Shown here piece by piece: positions 18,061-36,376 of a stretch of 62,205 nucleotides of DNA. This DNA is from a virus. Positions within the stretch are counted from its first letter, which is position 1; each line of letters opens with the position of its first letter. Under the pieces are notes generated by a model. It was not told where the DNA came from. It saw only the letters and a program-made list of their open reading frames with translations, and did no database searches. Made by a program: the position numbers and the translations under genes. The stretch lies in the IMG/VR virus record IMGVR_UViG_3300030108_000125, positions 1 to 62,205 of that record. One strand, written 5' to 3'.

Positions 18061-18076
18061 TCGGGCATCTGCCCGA
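18061..18076. repeat. Palindrome copy 1, TCGGGCA-TC-TGCCCGA
   Basis: A perfect 7+7 palindrome with TC in the middle. It lies upstream of the early promoter at 18124-18152, so it cannot be in that transcript's leader. This copy favours a DNA-level role, such as an operator. Confidence 0.9.
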
Positions 18077-18123
18077 ATAGTAATTGTAAATCTTATTATA
18101 AACTAGGCTAATCTCGCAAGCTA

Positions 18124-18152
18124 TTGTCTAACGTGTTATGTGCTGCTATAAG
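18124..18152 (+). promoter_or_regulatory. Probable sigma70 promoter for the first early gene
   Basis: TTGTCT (18124-18129), a 17-base spacer and TATAAG (18147-18152) form a good host-type promoter. Transcription would begin near 18159 and give a leader of about 54 bases to the ATG at 18213. Confidence 0.65.
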
Positions 18153-18212
18153 TTGGTTATCGGAACAAGGAAACATGGGGTTTCCAGCCGTATAACTTGA
18201 AAGGTTATTCAA

Positions 18213-18809
18213 ATGACTACTAAAATTGACATCAAAGCAATCCGCAAAGTTGGCGCTGATTTAATCAAGGTTCATGGTCTTGGCGGCGAATTTAAATCAG
18301 ATGATCTAGGCACTTTAGCAAGTGCGCATTCTGGCGAAATGACATCTAGTCAAGCATACGAATACCGCATTACTGAATTGAACGATAAGCCAGAGAATTG
18401 GTTTACACCTAGTCAGGAAGGTAGCACCAATGACAAAGTGTCATGGAGTATCAAGCGCAAAATGGCAATGGTAATATGCCTAACACCTAATGAGGTGGGC
18501 CGCATGGTGGAGACTGAGGGCACCACCAATGAATTGGATAAATTATTCCGCAAGCAAATATCTGATAAGATTAGCGATAAACTAAAAAATATCAGACGCG
18601 GTATGATTAACGCAGACCGCCGTCTCAATCCTGATAAGTACCAGCGCAATATCGTGAAGCGTGACGCACAGGATCGTAGTTTAGATAAACTTGCCGACAT
18701 CCTCAAAATACTTAATGAGGTCAACGAAGGCGATGATAGCATTTACGATATTCCAGAATGCATCATTGCAGCTAAAAACTTAGAAAAGCAGCTTAAGCGT
18801 AAATCTTAA
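18213..18809 (+). CDS. First early protein, unknown (198 residues)
   Basis: A 198-residue charged protein, mostly helical. It contains KRKMAMVICLTPNEVGRMVE and a basic helical part KQISDKISDKLKNIRRGMIN. A weak AAGG site precedes the ATG by nine bases. It has its own promoter and a terminator directly after the stop, so it is a single-gene unit next to the candidate origin. It could be a regulator, an early host-takeover protein or an origin-binding factor; I recognise no family. Confidence 0.7.
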   Translation: MTTKIDIKAIRKVGADLIKVHGLGGEFKSDDLGTLASAHSGEMTSSQAYEYRITELNDKPENWFTPSQEGSTNDKVSWSIKRKMAMVICLTPNEVGRMVETEGTTNELDKLFRKQISDKISDKLKNIRRGMINADRRLNPDKYQRNIVKRDAQDRSLDKLADILKILNEVNEGDDSIYDIPECIIAAKNLEKQLKRKS

Positions 18810-18819
18810 CTTGTTACAC

Positions 18820-18852
18820 TGGCCAGCCCTTCACGGGGTTGGCCATTTTTTT
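18820..18852 (+). terminator. Rho-independent terminator after the first early gene
   Basis: TGGCCAGCCC, a short TTCAC loop and GGGGTTGGCCA form a stem (one bulge), followed by seven T bases. It isolates the 18213-18809 gene from the rest of the early block. Confidence 0.88.
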
Positions 18853-18878
18853 ATGTCTAGTGAAATGCCAACTAGGCA

Positions 18879-18894
18879 TCGGGCATATGCCCGA
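18879..18894. repeat. Palindrome copy 2, centre TA
   Basis: TCGGGCA-TA-TGCCCGA. It lies 26 bases after the terminator of the first early gene and 20 bases before the first 34-bp direct repeat. Confidence 0.9.
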
Positions 18895-18914
18895 TTGCAC
18901 TTTTACCACACCAC

Positions 18915-18948
18915 TTTGATACCAGTACCCGAATAGCGCCGAGCCTCT
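18915..18948 (+). repeat. 34-bp direct repeat, copy 1
   Basis: Starts TTTGATACCAGTACCCGAAT and ends GCCGAGCCTCT. It is identical to 19017-19050. Each copy follows a palindrome, as if palindrome plus repeat had been duplicated as a unit. The internal TACCCGAAT resembles a palindrome half-site. Confidence 0.9.
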
Positions 18949-18994
18949 GGAATGCAGTGTAAGAAATTATATGCTACGTGGTACAACTTTGTAA

Positions 18995-19010
18995 TCGGGC
19001 AGATGCCCGA
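18995..19010. repeat. Palindrome copy 3, centre GA
   Basis: TCGGGCA-GA-TGCCCGA, six bases before the second copy of the 34-bp repeat, within the candidate origin. Confidence 0.9.
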
Positions 19011-19016
19011 ATGATA

Positions 19017-19050
19017 TTTGATACCAGTACCCGAATAGCGCCGAGCCTCT
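19017..19050 (+). repeat. 34-bp direct repeat, copy 2
   Basis: Identical to 18915-18948 over all 34 bases. It lies between palindrome copy 3 and the TGTGAGA inverted repeat. Confidence 0.9.
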
Positions 19051-19103
19051 TCGCGTGGTTTAAGCAAAGCGTATAAGTTATTGAAATCATTATAATGTTA
19101 GAA

Positions 19104-19328
19104 TGTGAGAAACCGTGTGAGAAAAATTTAGGGGTTAAGTCATTGAAAACAAAGCAATGTGAGAATGTGAGAGTTTTTAAAGAGTATAAGATTTATTTAG
19201 TAGTAGTAGTGTGAGAGAGTTCTTGCGCGTATTCTACGCTTTGCTCTCTACCTTGAAATTTTCTCACATTCTCACATTCGTTTAAAATCAATGACTTACA
19301 CCCACCCATTTTCTCACATTCTCTCACA
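19104..19328. repeat. TGTGAGA iterons in a large inverted repeat
   Basis: Forward TGTGAGA copies lie at 19104, 19116, 19158, 19166 and 19210. Reverse copies (TCTCACA) lie at 19262, 19270, 19312 and 19322. The pairs 19104/19322, 19116/19312 and 19158-19172/19262-19276 are symmetric about 19217. The arms also share AAGTCATTGA. The centre is A/T-rich and has a small GCGTA-TTC-TACGC dyad (19227-19239). This is a typical layout for an initiator-binding origin, though a strong regulatory site is also possible. Confidence 0.8.
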
Positions 19329-19367
19329 TACACTCATATACCGACTTATAATACTTTGTACGTTTTC

Positions 19368-19396
19368 TTGACATAAGGTGTTATATGTGATATAAC
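19368..19396 (+). promoter_or_regulatory. Strong sigma70 promoter for the MoxR-VWA operon
   Basis: A perfect TTGACA (19368-19373), a 17-base spacer and TATAAC (19391-19396). Transcription from about 19403 would put palindrome copy 4 (19445) in the leader, just before the zinc-ribbon gene at 19480. Confidence 0.8.
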
Positions 19397-19444
19397 CATA
19401 CTAGGCCATGACACTTGGTGACATTGCCTACCAACTGTAACCAT

Positions 19445-19460
19445 TCGGGCATATGCCCGA
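19445..19460. repeat. Palindrome copy 4, centre TA
   Basis: TCGGGCA-TA-TGCCCGA. It lies 19 bases before the ATG of the zinc-ribbon gene and downstream of its promoter. It could act in the mRNA leader or as an operator. Confidence 0.9.
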
Positions 19461-19479
19461 TCCAAACTTAGAGGTCACA

Positions 19480-19686
19480 ATGCCAAACAAATGCACATGC
19501 CCATCATGCGGCAACGATTATGACTACCGCCGCCGACAGTTAGGCTACAACTACTGCCTAGACTGCGGCGACATCCGCGCAGAGCAACAACGTCAGTCTT
19601 GGTGTGTCGTGCCACTGCCAAAGCAGGCATACACTCTCGTCACCCGCAAGTCTGACTTGCTGCACCTAAACCAGAAAACACGTTAA
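19480..19686 (+). CDS. Small zinc-ribbon protein (68 residues)
   Basis: MPNKCTCPSCGNDYDYRRRQ begins a protein with CxC-xx-C and a later CLDC pair, forming a zinc ribbon. The ATG at 19480 has a GAGGT site upstream; a start at 19453 would lie inside the palindrome. It is the first gene after the TTGACA promoter. It could be a transcription or host-interaction factor; no specific family is recognised. Confidence 0.7.
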   Translation: MPNKCTCPSCGNDYDYRRRQLGYNYCLDCGDIRAEQQRQSWCVVPLPKQAYTLVTRKSDLLHLNQKTR

Positions 19687-19690
19687 CCAT

Positions 19691-19706
19691 TCGGGCATGT
19701 GCCCGA
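19691..19706. repeat. Palindrome copy 5, centre TG
   Basis: TCGGGCA-TG-TGCCCGA. It lies between the zinc-ribbon stop and the ribosome site (AAAGGAG) of the next gene. Confidence 0.9.
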
Positions 19707-19726
19707 TCAGACAAAAGGAGAAACAA

Positions 19727-20605
19727 ATGTCTGCACCATCAATATCATCCGCTGCTATGCTTGTTAAGTTTAGCGTAACCATACCGACATTCCGCAAGGG
19801 TGACCGTATTGCCACTGAGGAAGTTGCTACCAACAACGGCGCAGATCGCAAGCGCTTCAATCTAACCAAGTCGCTCATTGACAACAAAGAGTTCAAAGCT
19901 CTGAAGACCCATGTCGGTGATGTGCGTAACAACATATACTATGCACGAACCCAGCCGTGGGATGACAAGGGGCCACGCCTCTTGTCCAATGCAAACTACT
20001 TCGACTTTCACGAAAAGATGACCTATGCCATCGACCAAGGCAAAGACCTGTGGGATATATTTCTTGACACGTACGAGCACCAGCGTGACGTGGTTGCTCC
20101 TCGCGAGTTAGGTGATCTGTACGATCCACTGCAATATCCGTCACTGTCTGACTTACAACTGGATGGGTTCCACATGAACCTTGGATATTCAGGCATTGCC
20201 GAGGCTGGCGACTTTCGTTGTGACATCGGCAAGGAGGCTGTGGATTATGTAAGAAGTCAGATGCAGTCTGACAACGAGGCACGGGTTCAGGGTGCGATGA
20301 AAGATTTGTGGCATCAGTTACACGATCAGATACAGCGGTTCCTCAAGAACCTAGCTGTCGACGAAACCACAGGTAAGAAGGGTAAGATCAGCGATGGCAT
20401 CTTTGATCGTCTGGTCGCACTCACTGACATGTTACACACATGCAACTACACAAACGATCCGGACATGGACGCCATGCGCCGTAAACTATCGGTTACTCTG
20501 GATAGTGTCACAACAGATGCTATGCGCAATAGCCCAACTACACGTGAGAAAACACGTGAGAAACTAACCGAGGCACTGAACAGCCTTCCATCATTAGACA
20601 TATAA
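19727..20605 (+). CDS. DUF3150-like partner of the MoxR ATPase (tentative)
   Basis: A 292-residue protein from an ATG at 19727 with AAAGGAG upstream. The N-terminal half has beta-helical segments (SAAMLVKFSVTIPTFRKGDR) and the second half is helical (AMKDLWHQLHDQIQRFLKNL). It precedes the AAA+ ATPase gene by 28 bases. In phages a DUF3150-type protein often sits directly next to a MoxR-like ATPase and a VWA protein, and the general pattern fits. Likely an adaptor or substrate-recruiting partner. The family label is tentative. Confidence 0.55.
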   Translation: MSAPSISSAAMLVKFSVTIPTFRKGDRIATEEVATNNGADRKRFNLTKSLIDNKEFKALKTHVGDVRNNIYYARTQPWDDKGPRLLSNANYFDFHEKMTYAIDQGKDLWDIFLDTYEHQRDVVAPRELGDLYDPLQYPSLSDLQLDGFHMNLGYSGIAEAGDFRCDIGKEAVDYVRSQMQSDNEARVQGAMKDLWHQLHDQIQRFLKNLAVDETTGKKGKISDGIFDRLVALTDMLHTCNYTNDPDMDAMRRKLSVTLDSVTTDAMRNSPTTREKTREKLTEALNSLPSLDI

Positions 20606-20621
20606 TCGGGCAGATGCCCGA
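20606..20621. repeat. Palindrome copy 6, centre GA
   Basis: TCGGGCA-GA-TGCCCGA begins directly after the TAA stop of the 19727-20605 gene and ends next to the AAGGAG site of the ATPase gene, filling the gene border. Confidence 0.9.
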
Positions 20622-20633
20622 AAGGAGAACAAC

Positions 20634-21728
20634 ATGAATACCGCTAAACAAATGTACGCACTTGACATCCAAGAGACTGCCGACTTGATTACCATGATCG
20701 GCAGAGATCAGACCGTGATTGCCATTGGCAGCATGGGTCAGGGTAAATCAGCCATACTCGACATTGTGGCTAAAGAGTTACCCACACACAAACCGTTCTA
20801 CTTCGATTGCACTACCAAGGTCGATGCTGGCGACATGGGCTTACCCAGAATGAAAGAGGCGCAAGAGAAAGACTTCTTCACGCATGCCGTTGCTGAAGAG
20901 TTGGGCTTTCATCACGATGGCCCGATATGCCTGATGCTTGACGAGATCGGCAAGAACAAGTCGCTGCTTCCTGCCCTGCAACGGATCGCATACGAGAAGA
21001 AGTTTGGTATGCACGAACTGCACCCAGACAGCATTGTCTTTGCTACGACCAACAAGGCAAGCGAGGGTATGGGTGACGTGTTATCTGCACTCATGCGTAA
21101 CAGGACAACAGTCGTCACCATACGAAAGACCACAAATCTCAAGTGGTTGGAGTGGGCTATCGACAATGATATCGAACCTCTGTTGATGGGTTATGTCAAA
21201 GACCATCCAGAGTTGGGTGATGACTTCGAGGATATCAAAGACCCACAAGAAAACTTGAAGATATACCACCCGAAAGACCCATCGCGTCAATCGTTCTGGA
21301 CATGGCGCTCTGGTGAAGCCGCGTCAAAGATACTGAAGAAACGTCACATGATGAGCAATCACATGCTGACTGCGGCACTCATCGGTACTATCGGTGAGCA
21401 AGCGGCGGTGGAGTTGATGACTTTTGTCAACGTGGCGAAGGACATGCCATCTGCTGATGACATCAAGAACGATCCGAAAAACGCCAAGGTGCCAAGCTCT
21501 GCTGCGGCTGTGTGCATGACTGTGTTTCGCACGTTAAGCACAATAGATCGTGATTGGATGGACGCATGGATGACATACATGGACAGGCTCGACACCGAGG
21601 CGCAAGGTCTGTTTGTCAATGGCGCACGATCCGAAAAGTACAGCAAGCGTAACATCGTGATGCAGAACAAAAAGTTCGGTGAGTGGTCACGTCTGAACGG
21701 TTACATGTTCCAAGCGGATAAAGTGTAA
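20634..21728 (+). CDS. MoxR/CobS-like AAA+ ATPase
   Basis: A 364-residue ATPase. Walker A is GSMGQGKS (residues 32-39), Walker B CLMLDEIGK (D103, E104), sensor 1 SIVFATTN (about 140) and candidate arginine fingers lie in LMRNRTTVV (155-157). This is the MoxR/CobS class, which remodels proteins together with a VWA-domain partner. That partner is encoded at 22189-23448. The stop TAA overlaps the ATG of the next small gene. The target is unknown; it might act in virion maturation, replication or host modulation. Confidence 0.85.
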   Translation: MNTAKQMYALDIQETADLITMIGRDQTVIAIGSMGQGKSAILDIVAKELPTHKPFYFDCTTKVDAGDMGLPRMKEAQEKDFFTHAVAEELGFHHDGPICLMLDEIGKNKSLLPALQRIAYEKKFGMHELHPDSIVFATTNKASEGMGDVLSALMRNRTTVVTIRKTTNLKWLEWAIDNDIEPLLMGYVKDHPELGDDFEDIKDPQENLKIYHPKDPSRQSFWTWRSGEAASKILKKRHMMSNHMLTAALIGTIGEQAAVELMTFVNVAKDMPSADDIKNDPKNAKVPSSAAAVCMTVFRTLSTIDRDWMDAWMTYMDRLDTEAQGLFVNGARSEKYSKRNIVMQNKKFGEWSRLNGYMFQADKV

Positions 21729-21880
21729 TGGATTGGTATCTGATGAAAGAGAACGGTGACACGTTCTGGACGCAATGTGAGAGCCGCGAACAGGCTCTTG
21801 CAGATGCACAGTTGTGGAATGCAGAGTTAGTGCGACAAGCCACCATAGTTGAAACACATTACCTAGAAGAGGAGGAGTGA
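21728..21880 (+). CDS. Small protein (50 residues) after the ATPase gene
   Basis: An ATG overlapping the ATPase stop opens MDWYLMKENGDTFWTQCESR, which ends in an acidic EEEE. Its 3' end (21824-21869) is duplicated at 21949-21994 with 41 of 46 bases equal. The protein-level match (ELVRQxTIxExHYLE) is also kept, so the copy probably arose from a real coding sequence. Function unknown. Confidence 0.6.
   Translation: MDWYLMKENGDTFWTQCESREQALADAQLWNAELVRQATIVETHYLEEEE
21824..21869 (+). repeat. 46-bp repeat A, end of the 50-residue gene
   Basis: Begins GAGTTAGTGCGACAAG and ends ACATTACCTAGAAG. It matches 21949-21994 at 41 of 46 bases. Between the two copies lies a 79-base segment that contains a fibre-like coding fragment. 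Confidence 0.85.
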
Positions 21881-21948
21881 TGTTGGCGCACAACTCGACC
21901 AGTTTTGCGAAACGCATCGACAGCAGTGGTAATGTGGGGATTGGTACC
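21880..21948 (+). pseudogene. Tail-fibre-like coding fragment in the early block
   Basis: Read on the + strand, 21910-21945 encodes KRIDSSGNVGIGT, the hallmark repeat of the phage's own fibre (MRIDSSGNVGIG), which lies on the - strand elsewhere. At DNA level CGCATCGACAGCAG and GTGGGGATTG are shared with fibre repeats near 1612-1655. An in-frame ATG (21880) links it to repeat B and to the next gene, but there is no good ribosome site of its own. It looks like a relic of illegitimate recombination; expression is doubtful. Confidence 0.6.
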
Positions 21949-21994
21949 GAGTTAGTACGACAAGTTACCATAGGTGAAATACATTACCTAGAAG
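21949..21994 (+). repeat. 46-bp repeat B, before the 22003 gene
   Basis: The second copy of the 46-bp repeat. It ends in GAAGGAG, which also serves as ribosome site for the ATG at 22003. Duplication would thus have supplied a new translation start for the downstream gene. Confidence 0.85.
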
Positions 21995-22002
21995 GAGAAA
22001 CA

Positions 22003-22188
22003 ATGAAATACGAAATCAAAGTCGAAGTAGTGATATGGGGTATAGATGCCGCAAACGTGGATGAGGCTGAGTATATCGCAAGCTCTACTCTGTATACACC
22101 GCGATGGTGGGAAGAGGTGAAGCACAAGATCAACGTTAAACGTGTTATGTCAATCGGGCATCTGCCCGAACGGAAAGAGGAGAAGTAA
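22003..22188 (+). CDS. Small hypothetical protein (61 residues)
   Basis: MKYEIKVEVVIWGIDAANVD starts a 61-residue alpha/beta protein. The ATG at 22003 follows GGAGAAACA. A longer frame from 21877 would add the fibre-like fragment. The last residues (SIGHLPE) are encoded by palindrome copy 7. The stop is next to the ATG of the VWA protein. Possibly a small partner of that complex; function unknown. Confidence 0.65.
   Translation: MKYEIKVEVVIWGIDAANVDEAEYIASSTLYTPRWWEEVKHKINVKRVMSIGHLPERKEEK
22154..22169. repeat. Palindrome copy 7, centre TC, inside a coding end
   Basis: TCGGGCA-TC-TGCCCGA is read as the tail IGHLPE of the 61-residue protein, shortly before the ribosome site of the VWA gene. 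Confidence 0.9.
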
Positions 22189-23448
22189 ATGTTTCAAGCA
22201 AATATGACATTGGAAGAGCGCATGTCGAGAGCGACAGTCGCTTGGATGAGAAAGGAGCCAGCACTCGCTGGTGTCCTGATGATCGGTGAAACGTATCTGG
22301 AGAAAACTTTTAGAGGCAAAGAGTTCACCGCATGCACAAACGGACGTGACGAATGGTATTGCCGCTCATTCATGGAAGCACTCAACGATCCACAGATACG
22401 GTTCGTCAAGATACATGAGGTGTACCACAAGATGTATCGACACCCGACAACATGGGGTCACTTGGCTAAGATCAACGCACGGCTTGCCAATATTGCGATG
22501 GACCACGTGATTAACAATCAGATCATGGAAGCCTATGGCAAGGATGGGTTCGTTGAGATGCCCGAGAACATTACCTACGGTGACGGTCAGTTCTTCAATG
22601 AATGCTGCTGTGATCCACAGTTTGCAGGGTGGGATACTGCCAAAGTATTCTGGCATCTGTATAAAGAGTTAGGTGAAGATGACGAAGGTGATCCCGGTAA
22701 TAAGGGTCAGAATGGTGACGGTGAAACAGGTCAGATGTTTGACGAGATTGACTTTGACGGCGCTGAAGAACTGACACGCGAAGAAAGGCAGGAGTTGGAG
22801 CGTGAGATTGACGAGGCACTGCGCCAAGGTGCGTTGGTCGCTGGCAAGATGGGCAGTGGTGGCAACCGTGACATTGACGAGTTACTTCAGCCCAAGATTG
22901 ATTGGCGCGAGGCGTTTCGTGAATGGTTCACTGCAACCTGTGCTGGCAGGGATCAGAGTACATGGCGTAGACCTAACAGACGATACCTAGCAAGCGGACA
23001 CTACATGCCATCTCAGATCAGTGAGACCGTTGCGTCTGTGCATTGCAGCAATGACATGTCTGGGTCTATCGGCGATGCCGAGGCTAAGATCATGGTGACA
23101 GAGACGGTCAACATATGTGAGACTGTATTTCCTGACGAGTTACACATAACCTATTGGGATACCGAGGTCTGCGGTTACGAGAAGTATGACAACACCGAGC
23201 TTGACACTGTGGCTGAACGCACGAAACCTGTGGGTGGTGGCGGCACTGACCCGACAGTTGTGCCTGAGTTTCTCAAGGAGAAAGACATAAAGCCAGAGGC
23301 TACGGTTGTCTTAACAGATGGTTACTTCTGGGGTGGCTGGGGTGATTGGGATCATCCAGTGTTGTGGGTTATCATCGACAACAAAGGGGCCAAGCCGCCG
23401 TTTGGTTCTGTAATACACGTTAGCAGAGAGGACTTTATGAATGGCTGA
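22189..23448 (+). CDS. Metallopeptidase-like plus VWA-domain protein (DUF2201/CobT type)
   Basis: A 419-residue protein. The N-terminal part has HEVYHKMYRH with an HExxH zinc site at residues 76-80. An acidic, Gly-rich linker follows (about 165-225). The C-terminal VWA-like domain has the MIDAS motif D289-M-S291-G-S293, the GGGGTDP threonine loop (about T353) and LTDGYFWGG (D377). This is the architecture of DUF2201 proteins, partners of MoxR-like ATPases. With 20634-21728 it would form an ATP-driven, metal-dependent remodelling or chelatase-like complex. Its substrate is unknown. Confidence 0.82.
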   Translation: MFQANMTLEERMSRATVAWMRKEPALAGVLMIGETYLEKTFRGKEFTACTNGRDEWYCRSFMEALNDPQIRFVKIHEVYHKMYRHPTTWGHLAKINARLANIAMDHVINNQIMEAYGKDGFVEMPENITYGDGQFFNECCCDPQFAGWDTAKVFWHLYKELGEDDEGDPGNKGQNGDGETGQMFDEIDFDGAEELTREERQELEREIDEALRQGALVAGKMGSGGNRDIDELLQPKIDWREAFREWFTATCAGRDQSTWRRPNRRYLASGHYMPSQISETVASVHCSNDMSGSIGDAEAKIMVTETVNICETVFPDELHITYWDTEVCGYEKYDNTELDTVAERTKPVGGGGTDPTVVPEFLKEKDIKPEATVVLTDGYFWGGWGDWDHPVLWVIIDNKGAKPPFGSVIHVSREDFMNG

Positions 23449-23707
23449 CAAAGACACACTGAGAATTTGTGACATAGTTTTTCAGATGAATGACGAGGGT
23501 GCCGCTTGCGGCATCCAATTCTCTGATGAATTTATGGCTCAAAGTGAAGAGTTGCAGGGCGCGATGATCGACGCGATGCAAGCAACCGTGAACAATTTTG
23601 TGGAGCGGTCAGGCATGGTTATGAAAGACGATGACATAGATATGGCAACCCAAGATGCGGCTAACTTCTTAGATAGTTGCGTCAAGAAACAAAGAGGTAA
23701 AATATAA
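23441..23707 (+). CDS. Hypothetical acidic protein (88 residues)
   Basis: An 88-residue Met/Asp-rich helical protein beginning MADKDTLRICDIVFQMNDEG. It overlaps the VWA gene by eight bases and the next gene by one, so it is translated with the MoxR-VWA cassette and may be an accessory subunit. No family recognised. Confidence 0.6.
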   Translation: MADKDTLRICDIVFQMNDEGAACGIQFSDEFMAQSEELQGAMIDAMQATVNNFVERSGMVMKDDDIDMATQDAANFLDSCVKKQRGKI

Positions 23708-23880
23708 TGAATGATGGGCCATACAAATGTGTTGACGATGAGCCATTGGGTGATTGGCACGACACAGAAAACAAAAGCGGATGCTATTGCGTAGTTTGTC
23801 TCATCTGCGTGAAAGAAGAATACTTTACGGATGGCGTGTGTGGTCGATGCAACTTCGATGATCCATGCACATACACATAA
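23707..23880 (+). CDS. Cysteine-rich microprotein (57 residues)
   Basis: Starts at an ATG that overlaps the previous stop. It holds seven cysteines, in CYCVVCLIC and GVCGRC plus flanking single Cys, so it is probably a small zinc-binding protein. Function unknown. Confidence 0.6.
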   Translation: MNDGPYKCVDDEPLGDWHDTENKSGCYCVVCLICVKEEYFTDGVCGRCNFDDPCTYT

Positions 23881-23899
23881 CATATGGAGGTAAAATGTA

Positions 23900-23998
23900 A
23901 TGGACGATAAACCAGATTGGCAGGACAAAGTTATCTTTGTGATTATTATCACACTCGCAATCGTGTTAATATTCCTAACCAGTATAGGTGTGATATGA
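23900..23998 (+). CDS. Single-pass membrane microprotein (32 residues)
   Basis: MDDKPDWQDKVIFVIIITLA and onward to GVI: a polar N-terminus of ten residues and one membrane span. A GGAGG site stands about ten bases upstream. The stop overlaps the next gene's start. Could act on the inner membrane early in infection. Confidence 0.55.
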   Translation: MDDKPDWQDKVIFVIIITLAIVLIFLTSIGVI

Positions 23999-24264
23999 TT
24001 GAGTTTTTTACCGTGTTGATCCTGACGTATCACATACAAGGTGAAGCGCACCACACTACGGTCCTCTATGACACAGAGGACAGGTGCCAAGAAGCTATGG
24101 ACAGAGGCGTGATGCTGCCTCTGTATAACCAACTATACGATCTGTATGGCAACGATACGATGATGCGTTGTTACGTGACAGAGGAGGTATCTAAATACCC
24201 GATAAGACCAAGACGTAAACCATTAATCGGGCAGATGCCCGAACCAAAAGAGGAGAATAACTAA
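23995..24264 (+). CDS. Small, possibly secreted protein (89 residues)
   Basis: An ATG at 23995 overlaps the stop of the membrane microprotein; a longer frame from 23917 would overlap it fully. A hydrophobic start (MIEFFTVLILTYH) may be a signal or anchor. Two Cys (EDRCQEAMD, MRCYV) could pair. The tail LIGQMPE is encoded by palindrome copy 8. The layout resembles the late gene at 56347-56544. Function unknown. Confidence 0.55.
   Translation: MIEFFTVLILTYHIQGEAHHTTVLYDTEDRCQEAMDRGVMLPLYNQLYDLYGNDTMMRCYVTEEVSKYPIRPRRKPLIGQMPEPKEENN
24227..24242. repeat. Palindrome copy 8, centre GA, inside a coding end
   Basis: TCGGGCA-GA-TGCCCGA, read as IGQMPE near the end of the 23995-24264 gene and shortly before the GAGGAG site of the next gene. 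Confidence 0.9.
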
Positions 24265-32009: not shown

Positions 32010-32411
32010 ATGGGTGACTATTCAAATGCACCTGCCGATAAAATGACAAGAGCGTATCTAAAAATACGTAACAAACGTGCAGAATTAAAAGCGGCATTTA
32101 CAAAAGAAGATGATGAGTTGGCACGTCAACTCGACACTTTAAAACGCGCACTTCTTAGCTATTGTGATCGTAACAAAGTTGAGAGTGTTAGAACCGATGA
32201 GGGGTTATTCTTTCGGTCACAACGCACCAAGTATTGGACAAGCGATTGGGATGCTATGCACAAGTTTGTAATAGAACACGCTGTGCCTGAGTTGTTTGAT
32301 AAAAGATTAAATCAGACAAACATGAAGCAATTTTTGGAGGAGAACCCTGAGTTACAACCTGAAGGCTTAAAGATTGACAACGAGTATGTCATATCAGTTA
32401 GGAAGAAATAA
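32010..32411 (+). CDS. Coiled-coil protein, possibly Gam-like
   Basis: A 133-residue protein. The ATG at 32010 is at good distance from AAGGAGGAG; 32004 is too near. It has an N-terminal coil (RAELKAAFTKEDDELARQLD), then SVRTDEGLFFRSQRTKYWTS and a helical end. The coil followed by a short beta region recalls Mu Gam, which guards DNA ends from host RecBCD. The position next to helicase and nuclease genes fits, but the link is weak. Confidence 0.5.
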   Translation: MGDYSNAPADKMTRAYLKIRNKRAELKAAFTKEDDELARQLDTLKRALLSYCDRNKVESVRTDEGLFFRSQRTKYWTSDWDAMHKFVIEHAVPELFDKRLNQTNMKQFLEENPELQPEGLKIDNEYVISVRKK

Positions 32412-32662
32412 TGACGGCACCATTCGTCCCAATAGAAGATTTAGCTAGCCACTTAGCTGTATCAATATCCACCGTAAGAGGGTGGGTTCGTCAGGGTCAC
32501 ATACCTGATGATACTTATTTAAAGATCAACAACGTATATCGTTTTGACAAAGAGGCTGTGTCTAAGGCGTTGTTGAAAAGAACCAGCCCACCACCTGTGC
32601 GATACACATCGCATGACAACACACAGTACGAGGAAGATTTAGACCTCGACAGAGACATATAG
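32411..32662 (+). CDS. Helix-turn-helix DNA-binding protein (MerR/excisionase type)
   Basis: An 83-residue protein with a wHTH: FVPIEDLASHLAVSISTVRG, then WVRQGHIPDD and a YRFDKEAV wing. It is the clearest small DNA-binding regulator in the window and could be an early-gene regulator. No integrase gene accompanies it, so an excisionase role is unlikely. It overlaps the previous stop by one base. Confidence 0.72.
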   Translation: MTAPFVPIEDLASHLAVSISTVRGWVRQGHIPDDTYLKINNVYRFDKEAVSKALLKRTSPPPVRYTSHDNTQYEEDLDLDRDI

Positions 32663-32671
32663 GAGAACAGT

Positions 32672-33361
32672 ATGGCAGACGCGTATAAGATAATGGGTGC
32701 AGAAGCACTATGGCCCAAGTTGGATAGAACTTATCACTTTGATAAAAAACTTAATCAAAGTGTGCCTTGTGATCCGATGGCACCAAATGCTGAATATTCC
32801 CTCGAATTGAAGATGGATAGCGAGACAGCTAGGCAGTTATATGTAGCTATGGTAACCGCTTATAAGAAAGACAAACAAAAAGGTTGGCCTGATGCACCGT
32901 CCAACCCAATGACAAAACACGATGATGGTACACGCACCGTCAAGTGCACACTAAAAGGCCAGTACAACGGATCAGTTACACGCAAGCCTTTACAAGTTGA
33001 TTCGAGAAACAATCCTATGCCGGATGATTTTCAGCTTACTACAGGCAGCATTGTAAACGTAGGTGTAACATTTTATCCCTATAAATACATGTCTAACGAG
33101 CCGAGCGTGTCACTTCGCTTACGTCAGTTGCAGGTTGTGCAGCTTGCAGATCGCACTATTCGCAGCATGTTCGATGTTGTTGATGATGGCTATGTTCACA
33201 ATGAAGAGAGCATGTTTTCTAGTAACGTAGTAGATATGCCACAGAAAGAAGAGGTTTCTGAACCAGAGCCAGAACCAGTTAAAACTACAAGCAAGAAGGC
33301 TGCATCTGGTGGTTCTACTGGTAGTTCATTGGATGACATTTTAGATAACTGGGACGACTAG
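32672..33361 (+). CDS. ssDNA-binding-like protein (DUF2815-type pattern)
   Basis: A 229-residue protein with a beta-rich OB-like core of about 165 residues (TRTVKCTLKGQYNGSVTRKP, SIVNVGVTFYPYKYMSNEPS, VSLRLRQLQVVQLAD) and an acidic C-terminal tail (SLDDILDNWDD). Phage ssDNA-binding proteins typically end in such a tail, which recruits replication partners. It lies between helicase and primase genes. The assignment is by fold pattern and place. Confidence 0.7.
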   Translation: MADAYKIMGAEALWPKLDRTYHFDKKLNQSVPCDPMAPNAEYSLELKMDSETARQLYVAMVTAYKKDKQKGWPDAPSNPMTKHDDGTRTVKCTLKGQYNGSVTRKPLQVDSRNNPMPDDFQLTTGSIVNVGVTFYPYKYMSNEPSVSLRLRQLQVVQLADRTIRSMFDVVDDGYVHNEESMFSSNVVDMPQKEEVSEPEPEPVKTTSKKAASGGSTGSSLDDILDNWDD

Positions 33362-33369
33362 TTAACATA

Positions 33370-33398
33370 GCGCGGTCTAACAAGGCCGCGCATTTTTT
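33370..33398 (+). terminator. Rho-independent terminator before the primase-helicase gene
   Basis: GCGCGG and CCGCGC arms with a ten-base loop, followed by A and six T bases. It would reduce read-through from the ssDNA-binding gene into the primase gene. No obvious promoter follows it before 33418, so the primase gene relies on leakage. Confidence 0.82.
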
Positions 33399-33417
33399 CT
33401 AACAGTGGATGAGAACA

Positions 33418-36177
33418 ATGAACACCCAAGACTTTTTGGGTTCTGTGTTAAGTGACGAAGGGTATTACTGCATAACCATAATCAAAGGGGATTATGTTAA
33501 AAACAACTTTTACGAAACATTAGACGAGGCAATAGAGCAAGCTAATAATTTTAACGCCTCAGAGTATAATGTTTACTTCGCTTTAAGTACCTTCATAGAG
33601 CCGATTAACCGCAAGCAAATAAATGTCCAAGGAGTAAAATCTTTCTTCTTTGATTTGGACTGTGGTCCACTAAAAGATTTTACATCGCAAGACGAAGCGT
33701 TAAAAAAATTAAACTGGTTTTGCAAAAATAACCGATTACCCAGACCAACTATAATTAATTCTGGTAACGGGTTACATGTATACTGGCCTCTAGCTGCAGC
33801 AGTTGATGAAGCTACATGGTATCCAGTTGCAGAGAGCCTCAAGCAGTTATGCGCCAAACAAAACTTTCCTGCTGACCCGTCCCGTACATCTGATGCGTCT
33901 AGTATATTACGTGTACCTAATACACATAATTATAAAGAGGATGAGCCTAAACCCGTATTTTTATTAGGCGGCTATCTTGCGAAACCCATAGAGTTTTCCA
34001 AGTTTGAAGATAGTGTTGGTGGTGCGATACCAGTTCCTTATAGGTTTAAACCCAGTGCGTATAAGGATGCACTCAATGCACAAAGCACAGGTAGTTTTAA
34101 ACGGCTAATGGAGAAGACCAAAAACGGTCAAGGGTGCCAGCAAATAGAATATATTATAGAGAACCAAGCCACTGTGTCTTATGACATGTGGAGAGCGGGT
34201 CTTTCTATCGCTAAGGTGTGTGAAGATGGAGACAAGGCAGCGGAAGCCATGTCCAAACACCATCCAGATTACAGTTTTGACGAGACAATTCGAAAAATGA
34301 TGGACACAGGGGGGCCACAATACTGTAGTACCTTTGCTACGCACAATCCTGATGGCTGTGCAGGCTGTCCTAACATGTTAACTATAAGTACCCCAGCACA
34401 ACTTACAAAAATAGTACAAGAAGCCAAACCAGATGCTAATGTGCCAGATTACCCAGCACCATACATACGTGGTAAAAACGGCGGTGTGTATATGCGCACC
34501 AAAGATGAAGAGGGTAACCCAAAAGAAGAACTTATTTATCTAAACGATTTTTACGCTACTCATAGAATGCAAGACCCAGAAGAAGGCGAAGTTATTGCAT
34601 TTGCATTACATTTACCTAAAGATGGGATAAGAAGATTTAATGTGCCTTTAGGCTCTTTGACATCACGTGAGGAACTAAGAAAGGCATTATCTTATAAAGG
34701 TGTAACTTCTTATGGAGACGAGCTTAGTAGGATTATGAAATACATACAGGCATGGGTAAACGAGTTACAGCAAACAAATGCAGCCGACATCGCTTACACG
34801 CAATTTGGTTGGACAGACGATGAAAAGATGGACGCATTTGTTTGGGGTGACAGGTTAGTATTAGAAGACGAGGTAAGGTATAACCCGCCTTCTGCTAAAA
34901 CATCTTCTTTTATAGAATACATGCAACCCACTGGTAGCGCAGAACGCCAGAAAGAAATCATGGAATTTTTTAATAGAGATGGCCTTGAGTTGCACCAATT
35001 CTCAATCTGCATGGGGTTTGCCTCTCCTCTTATGGCCTTCACAGGCCTGTTCAGTTTTCTAGCGCATCTCAATGGTGGGTCAGGCGTGGGTAAAACTACA
35101 GCTTTATATGCCAACACAGGTATATGGGGTGATCCTGTAGGTATGTGCGTAGGGTCAAACGACACGTTATACTCTAGACAGAACAGATCAGAGCGTTTGA
35201 AAAACATATCGTGCAACGCTGACGAACAGTCGGAGATGACCCCGAAGGACGTATCCAGATTTTGTTACACACAAGCGGAAGGTAAACAACGTAATAGGTT
35301 AAAGAGTAGTGGTAACGAAGAGCGTTACAGGGGTGCGCCTTGGAGACAGACAGGTTTGTCTACAGGAAATATAAGTTTTTGGGAGTTCCTGCAAAAAGAA
35401 CGCGGTAACCCCGAAGCACAGATGCAGCGCGTGTTAGAATTTGATGTGGTTAAATACATTACCAAAGATCGCTTTGCGCAGATGCGACAGGAGGAAGGTT
35501 TCTCTTTAGCAGAAACATCTAACCTATTTAAGGACGTGCAGGTAAACTACTGTAACTTTACGATAGAGTATCTTCAATATGTTATGAAAAACCGCGCTCA
35601 AATAGAAAGTATTTATAACGGTGTCAAAGCAAGATTAGATAAAGAAGCAGACCTTACCCCTGTAAATAGGTTTTGGTCTGCTGGCTGTGCTTGCACCATA
35701 ACAGGCTGCATTGTAGCGAAGCAGTTAGGTATAATAAATTATGACCACAAGAAATTATTTAAGTGGGTAGTAAAAGAACTAATACGCGCAAAAGAAGAAG
35801 TGGAAGGCGCTAAACCTAATGTATCGAACATAATAGCAGAGTTTGCTGGAGCGCATTGGGGCAACATACTAAAGATAAAAAGCACAGAAGATGCTAGAGA
35901 AGAAGACTTGATAGTCCCAGAGCAGAACCCCCGCACCAAAATTATAGGGCGATATGAAACAGACACGAAACTTCTGTTTATTCCTACTAAGGAACTAAAA
36001 GATTATCTAGTAGATAGGTTCATACATTATGCCTCAACAGTAAAAATGTTAAAAGATGAAATGGGGGCCGTCACTAAAAGTGTTCGTTTAACAACAGGCA
36101 CCAGCTTACGCCTGCCTTCACAATACTGCATAGTTGTTAAGATGGATGGGTTAGATGATACCATTGAGGCTGGATGA
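33418..36177 (+). CDS. Primase-helicase: AEP-like primase plus DUF927-type ATPase
   Basis: A 919-residue fusion. The N-terminus resembles an archaeo-eukaryotic primase: FFFDLDCG (D79, D81) and SGNGLHVYWPL (H120), then RVPNTHNYK. The C-terminal half is a DUF927-type ATPase with Walker A NGGSGVGKTT (K559), CNADEQSEM as a possible Walker B and a long helical end. One protein can thus prime and unwind DNA, replacing separate DnaG/DnaB. I choose ATG 33418, which has GAGA upstream; 33409 is an alternative. Confidence 0.85.
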   Translation: MNTQDFLGSVLSDEGYYCITIIKGDYVKNNFYETLDEAIEQANNFNASEYNVYFALSTFIEPINRKQINVQGVKSFFFDLDCGPLKDFTSQDEALKKLNWFCKNNRLPRPTIINSGNGLHVYWPLAAAVDEATWYPVAESLKQLCAKQNFPADPSRTSDASSILRVPNTHNYKEDEPKPVFLLGGYLAKPIEFSKFEDSVGGAIPVPYRFKPSAYKDALNAQSTGSFKRLMEKTKNGQGCQQIEYIIENQATVSYDMWRAGLSIAKVCEDGDKAAEAMSKHHPDYSFDETIRKMMDTGGPQYCSTFATHNPDGCAGCPNMLTISTPAQLTKIVQEAKPDANVPDYPAPYIRGKNGGVYMRTKDEEGNPKEELIYLNDFYATHRMQDPEEGEVIAFALHLPKDGIRRFNVPLGSLTSREELRKALSYKGVTSYGDELSRIMKYIQAWVNELQQTNAADIAYTQFGWTDDEKMDAFVWGDRLVLEDEVRYNPPSAKTSSFIEYMQPTGSAERQKEIMEFFNRDGLELHQFSICMGFASPLMAFTGLFSFLAHLNGGSGVGKTTALYANTGIWGDPVGMCVGSNDTLYSRQNRSERLKNISCNADEQSEMTPKDVSRFCYTQAEGKQRNRLKSSGNEERYRGAPWRQTGLSTGNISFWEFLQKERGNPEAQMQRVLEFDVVKYITKDRFAQMRQEEGFSLAETSNLFKDVQVNYCNFTIEYLQYVMKNRAQIESIYNGVKARLDKEADLTPVNRFWSAGCACTITGCIVAKQLGIINYDHKKLFKWVVKELIRAKEEVEGAKPNVSNIIAEFAGAHWGNILKIKSTEDAREEDLIVPEQNPRTKIIGRYETDTKLLFIPTKELKDYLVDRFIHYASTVKMLKDEMGAVTKSVRLTTGTSLRLPSQYCIVVKMDGLDDTIEAG

Positions 36178-36376
36178 TCTAAACCCTGACGGAGTGCATA
36201 TTACAGTAAACTGGAACAAATTGGTGGTTGGAGCCTCTGTGTTCATACCCTGCATCAATACCGAAAAGGCTAGGGAGCAACTCAAACGTGTGGCCCAGAT
36301 GAAACAATATGAGACAACTACGCACATATGTATAGAAAATGGCATGTGGGGGGTTCGCATGTGGAGATTGTTATGA
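36155..36376 (+). CDS. Small protein at the end of the early block
   Basis: A 73-residue protein, MIPLRLDDLNPDGVHITVNW and onward. It overlaps the primase-helicase end by 23 bases in another frame. It has an alpha/beta character with a basic helix (EKAREQLKRVAQMKQY) and ends before the strong terminator. Function unknown. Confidence 0.6.
   Translation: MIPLRLDDLNPDGVHITVNWNKLVVGASVFIPCINTEKAREQLKRVAQMKQYETTTHICIENGMWGVRMWRLL

Follow-up and report, generated by a model that had tools for sequence, protein, structure and literature searches.

Organization of the iteron locus

The window, that is, the whole 62,205-nucleotide stretch of DNA analyzed here, comes from a virus record of 67.5 kb. 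By its large terminase, portal and polymerase it falls near ~60 kb phages such as HTVC023P/HTVC027P, DSL-LC04, RHph_TM3_14A and KPP25, and no near-identical DNA was found in the collection of phage records. Genes with replication functions run rightward from 19.5 to 36.4 kb and the structural genes run leftward. The border between the two groups is occupied by an array of short repeated motifs (iterons) and a promoter, arranged as follows.

19074 to 19084, + strand: TAAGTYATTGA box, 9 bp before an iteron pair
19096 to 19216, + strand: forward iteron array, made of a relic TGTTAGA (19096 to 19102) and TGTGAGA at 19104, 19116, 19158, 19166 and 19210
19136 to 19146, + strand: second TAAGTYATTGA box
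19173 to 19209, no strand: A/T-rich stretch between the arrays, candidate unwinding element, 22% GC
19262 to 19328, - strand: reverse iteron array, TGTGAGA at 19262, 19270, 19312 and 19322
19288 to 19298, - strand: TAAGTYATTGA box of the inverted array
19368 to 19396, + strand: sigma-70-type early promoter TTGACA-17-TATAAC, pointing away from the array into the early/replication operon
19480 to 36376, + strand: early/replication genes downstream of the array, encoding a Zn-ribbon protein, a 302-aa protein, a MoxR-like ATPase, a VWA protein, DNA polymerase, exonuclease, an SNF2-type helicase, SSB and a primase-helicase

The segment from 19104 to 19328 holds nine exact copies of TGTGAGA, five forward and four reverse, compared with six elsewhere in the 62 kb window; at the shuffled-genome rate, the chance of nine in a given 225 bp is ~1e-19. 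A tenth copy is the variant TGTTAGA at 19096. The original prediction had described a symmetric array of five forward and four reverse motifs around an A/T-rich core, in the longest non-coding stretch of the window, and each of these points was borne out: the midpoint is at 19216, the GC content of 19173 to 19209 is 22% against 44% for the window, and the 643 bp from 18810 to 19452 form the longest stretch without an open reading frame of at least 60 amino acids. A TTTATTTAG-like core of the A/T-rich stretch is kept in four relatives, and (TA)n is found inside the arrays of many distant relatives. The TAAGTYATTGA boxes, which the first reading had overlooked, precede iteron pairs and are kept in relatives, and a pattern scan located the composite box-iteron motif in other phages.

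The outgoing promoter that had been proposed is present in the sequence. It starts ~40 bp from the array and consists of TTGACA (19368 to 19373), a 17-bp spacer and TATAAC (19391 to 19396), the final C of which caused a consensus promoter scanner to omit it. It is identical or similar in four relatives (L009, G004, L002 and L003), and many distant relatives also have TTGACA on this side of their arrays. A small central dyad, GCGTATTCTACGC at 19227 to 19239, had also been counted among the elements of the site. It is not conserved in any of these four genomes, which suggests that it is probably not a functional part. GC skew across the window flips sign with gene strand and speaks neither for nor against an origin at the array.

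Several other repeats surround the locus. An exact 34-bp direct repeat containing GATACCAGTA (18915 to 18948 and 19017 to 19050) lies beside a possible hairpin, and many relatives retain ACTGGTATC on the direct-repeat side of the array. Spread over 18061 to 26751 are ten perfect TCGGGCANNTGCCCGA palindromes (at 18061, 18879, 18995, 19445, 19691, 20606, 22154, 24227, 25490 and 26736), most of which lie between early genes. L002 and L023 carry TTAGGGACGTCCCTAA in their place, and in L002 this replacement is accompanied by a first gene (198 aa in the window) that belongs to a different family. Some other relatives carry TGTTAGTG...CACTAACA instead.

Within the early operon, the opening genes for the MoxR-like ATPase and a DUF2201/VWA protein (20634 to 23448) have distant relatives in N4-like phages, and the 302-aa gene contains an exact tandem 12-mer, ACACGTGAGAAA, at 20540 to 20563. 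The 316-aa protein of 24264 to 25509 is 86% identical to that of G004 compared with 94-98% for most of its neighbors, falls to 26-30% identity in more distant relatives, and has a C-terminal part that by eye resembles the product of the next gene (101 aa).

Equivalent arrays in related phages

A search with the small terminase yielded at least 446 relatives. Many of the loci kept contain 5-11 copies of a single word in two opposed blocks, mostly 1-2 kb upstream of the small-terminase gene, and in dozens of relatives an equivalent array lies between that gene and the early operon. The iteron word is nearly uniform inside each phage and differs between phages; TGTGAG, TGTTAC, TGTTAG, TGTTCC, TGTTCG, TGTTCT and TGTACC were seen. 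L009, L002 and L003 retain the TAAGTCATTGA boxes and the promoter but have other iteron letters. The closest case is G004, which is ~95% identical to the window over most of the aligned length, with an identical promoter and nearly identical flanks. Its iterons read TGTTACA where the window has TGTGAGA, and the counterpart of the copy at 19210 is lost. As read from these genomes, the comparison shows that inverted arrays of a phage-specific 6-7 bp iteron, placed around an A/T-rich stretch by an early promoter, are a general feature of the group.

The isolated Pseudomonas phage Rollin has an inverted ATATGCAA array with a TAAGTGGTTGA box (record positions 251 to 730) and a protein related, at 28.6% identity, to the 922-aa primase-helicase of the window. 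Pseudomonas phage KPP25 carries two TGTTACGA/TGTCACGA arrays in one genome (L029:1051-1560 and L029:32850-33250), and it encodes a DUF5906 protein in place of a detectable DUF927 relative. In Synechococcus phage MinM2 a TGTCATAC array lies in a non-coding stretch upstream of the structural genes (L117:13121-13510).

A putative primase-helicase with a predicted C-terminal winged helix

The last of the early genes encodes a protein of 922 amino acids, the features of which are listed below.

33409 to 36177, + strand: 922-aa candidate initiator, with a putative N-terminal archaeo-eukaryotic-type primase, a DUF927 helicase and a C-terminal winged helix
35806 to 36174, + strand: C-terminal winged-helix domain, residues 800-922, the proposed iteron reader (AlphaFold2 pLDDT 83)
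36124 to 36126, + strand: codon of residue 906 (Tyr in the window), which is located on the strand that follows the wing and is proposed to set specificity

The protein matches Pfam DUF927 with an E value of 2e-19 (70.8 bits against a cut-off of 22.6), and a profile of its relatives matches SaPIbov1 Rep (8tch, 2.9e-20) and SCCmec Cch (5dgk, 7.9e-15). At the N-terminus a LigD-type primase match is weak and below the cut-off (E 0.019). Two conserved motifs, FFLDLDCG and SGRGVHVYW, presumably correspond to AEP motifs. The best structural match of the predicted C-terminal domain is the C-terminal domain of 5dgk (Z 9.7, rmsd 3.0, 92 residues aligned), followed by that of 8tch (Z 8.8, rmsd 3.0, 97 aligned). 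The full-length model has a pLDDT of 68 overall and is poor in the helicase part, and the fold claims rest elsewhere. The gene (33.4-36.2 kb) and the array (19.1-19.3 kb) are ~14 kb apart.

The 20 amino-acid differences in this protein between the window and G004 are concentrated at the C-terminus, with 15 of them in the last 122 residues (Fisher p 2.6e-10). Synonymous differences are raised there too, which points to an exchange of the C-terminal segment by recombination.

Residue 906 follows the iteron word

The first covariation set comprised 19 phages carrying both an array and the primase-helicase. Of all 767 variable columns, residue 906 showed the strongest association with the word (z 6.2; next 4.1). 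It changes in seven of seven sister comparisons, listed here with the differing letters of the word and the residue at 906.

window/G004: GAG/TAC, Tyr/Arg
G006/G024: TCC/ACC, Trp/Arg
G014/G007: ACC/TCC, Arg/Trp
G027/G043: TCG/TCC, Asp/Trp
G012/G037: TCC/TAC, Asn/His
G034 against G008 and against G035: TAC/TCG, His/Asp

When 31 phages were combined, residue 906 scored z 10.3 against 6.6 for the next column, with scores that ignore phylogeny. Columns 629 and 623, which are clade markers, also score high; column 629 is constant within all sister comparisons. Among the 31 phages an acidic residue at 906 accompanies a word ending in G or T in 14 of 14 cases, and a non-acidic residue accompanies a final C in 16 of 17. 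A chemical rule is plausible, with acidic residues going with words that end in G or T and Arg, His or Trp with words that end in C. Residue 906 alone is not the full code, because His and Arg are each found with more than one word.

Other comparisons give a measure of this association. Across 25 phages, z was 7.6 for residue 906, compared with 4.3-4.9 for the top-scoring columns of three other early proteins. A screen of 18 proteins from 12 genomes ranked it only tenth of 4365 columns; that screen is short of power, and the small terminase gave no usable columns in it. When the columns were ranked only by the middle letter of the word, residue 906 did not stand out.

The rule from the first set was then applied to new contigs, in the same script that read the arrays. 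Calls from residue 906 were correct in 9 of 11 new phages and partial in 2, with no clear contradiction. Trp, predicted to go with TGTTCC, was right in two of two, and Asp, predicted to go with TGTTCG or TGTTCT, was right in seven, a count that takes the near-clonal G053 and G054 once and includes a truncated array in G052. The G066 call, also among the seven, was correct only after reading by eye, the automatic caller having taken a TGTTAG palindrome. The same automatic call was made in G058 (Asp), where reading by eye gave TGTCG, a partial fit; both phages were re-read after the result was known and are weaker tests. The other partial fit is G068 (Tyr), predicted to carry TGTGAG and observed to carry TGTGAC. 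There was no prior rule for the residues of G059 (Glu, TGTTCT) and G062 (Ala, TGTTCC), and G075 has no array on its contig.

Taken together, these comparisons strongly indicate that the iteron is read by the winged helix of the 33409 to 36177 product and that residue 906, on the wing strand, is a main specificity contact. The original prediction of an origin at this site is well supported by the comparative evidence. Its statement that no known initiator family is present was mistaken, as a member of the SaPI Rep / SCCmec Cch family, combining primase, DUF927 helicase and winged helix, is encoded in the genome. Because this covarying candidate is encoded, the unknown initiator or transcription-primed start that had been suggested is not needed, though the adjacent promoter is conserved.

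Other functions and other readers

The array might serve as an operator only, through which a phage regulator, perhaps the C-terminal domain of the primase-helicase itself, controls the early promoter while replication starts elsewhere. The conserved promoter ~40 bp away and the position between rightward early and leftward structural genes would both suit an operator. This reading is nevertheless improbable: the word covaries with a primase-helicase whose known relatives include origin-binding initiators, and a simple operator would not need as many as about ten sites, set in two inverted blocks on either side of an A/T-rich stretch.

A packaging site (pac or cos) for the small subunit of the terminase would account for the proximity of the array to the small-terminase gene, which lies 1-2 kb away and is near the array in the window and in most relatives checked. 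We consider this very unlikely: the window and L009 have different iterons but share 97% identity in the small terminase, on which ground this protein was rejected as the iteron reader, and the word follows the wing of the primase-helicase instead.

There is an equally slim chance that the word is read by another variable early protein. The window and G004 share 92-100% identity in most early proteins. The product of 26772 to 27326, which we take to be an HTH domain fused to a DUF3310-like domain, is 67% identical, and the gene at 29158 to 29472, between polymerase and exonuclease, is replaced, so that either could be imagined to track the word. The predicted recognition helix of the HTH-DUF3310 protein is however identical in the two phages, and no DUF3310 relative was found in the array-bearing G011 and G016; the 29158 to 29472 slot is empty in several array-bearing phages. 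Both candidates were rejected for these reasons, as were the 198-aa product of the first gene, which tracks the palindrome type and not the iteron word, and the Zn-ribbon protein, which is 99% identical between the window and G004.

The PHROGs label of the match to the 26772 to 27326 product is phosphofructokinase. This protein has a hypervariable linker, and its 67% identity to G004 compares with 94-98% for most neighbors. The 29158 to 29472 slot holds unrelated small genes in different phages, or none, and looks like a cargo site.

Comparison with known initiators

The TGTGAGA array at 19096 to 19328 is most likely the replication origin of this ~67 kb marine phage, and the fuller explanation, in which the origin is read by the C-terminal winged helix of the phage's own primase-helicase, is one we hold with high confidence on comparative grounds. 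By analogy with SaPI Rep and Cch, the primase-helicase would assemble across both inverted arrays, probably as a pair of hexamers set head to head, melt the A/T-rich stretch and load itself as the helicase. The N-terminal primase of the same protein would then prime synthesis, and the phage DNA polymerase would extend it. The adjacent promoter would drive the replication genes, perhaps under regulation by this same binding.

In staphylococcal pathogenicity islands (SaPIs), the C-terminal domain of Rep is reported to read iterons (PMC7581432). SaPIbov1 Rep shares with the 922-aa protein both a DUF927-type helicase (profile E 2.9e-20) and a C-terminal winged helix (fold Z 8.8), and its origin likewise consists of multiple short iterons. 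The phage system departs from this: its helicase is fused to a putative primase, it is carried by a free phage and not by a satellite island, and its word changes from one near-identical relative to another. SaPI origins adjoin rep, whereas this array lies ~14 kb from the gene; the phage origin would therefore be SaPI-like in its working but is not filed as a SaPI replicon. The DUF927 helicase Cch of SCCmec (PDB 5dgk) is similar in the helicase core (E 7.9e-15) and in the C-terminal fold (Z 9.7), but it has no fused primase and belongs to another kind of mobile element.

Primase-DUF927-winged helix proteins were already described in 2018 (PMC5862659). Some members of the PrimQH / All3500 fusions have a primase fused to a DUF927 ATPase, and the C-terminal winged helix of PrimQH was suggested in that work to recognize origins (Kazlauskas 2018, PMC5862659). 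Origin recognition was only suggested there, whereas the phage offers a candidate origin and a covarying residue. TcpK of plasmid pCW3 (PDB 5vfx/5vfy) has a winged helix of similar fold (Z 8.0-8.2), whose beta-wing enters the major groove to read 9-nt tandem repeats (PMC6137059). It is a conjugation accessory protein, neither helicase nor initiator. Lambda O and the initiators of iteron plasmids also use iterons by an A/T-rich stretch, with specificity that differs between relatives. The candidate described here differs in being helicase and primase as well, and of the proteins scanned in this phage, none was identified as an O-type or plasmid Rep-type initiator. Geminiviruses, which also combine a Rep with iterons, are single-stranded DNA viruses with an unrelated Rep.

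None of the papers searched reports an origin or switching words for this phage group, and the main text of those on the HTVC023P and CHAB-I-5 groups contains neither origin nor iterons. An iteron origin read by a primase-helicase initiator would be of a known kind; the fast-switching recognition code would be new. The joint change of word and residue 906 across a common marine phage group suggests a readable lock-and-key code for the start of replication. We put forward, tentatively and at somewhat less than even odds, that a large group of lytic phages uses a self-loading primase-helicase with a simple recognition code in its wing. On this view, changing about one wing residue while about ten iterons are rewritten in concert gives rise to a new replication specificity, and near-identical phages infecting the same cell could not share an initiator.

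For a common, uncharacterized marine phage group, these results define a candidate origin, name a candidate initiator and propose a code at the level of residues. The group also offers a natural experiment in which a protein co-evolves with about ten DNA sites simultaneously, and with it the puzzle of how the reader and all of its sites could change together without a non-functional intermediate. The code might be of use in locating origins and in predicting their words from protein sequence.
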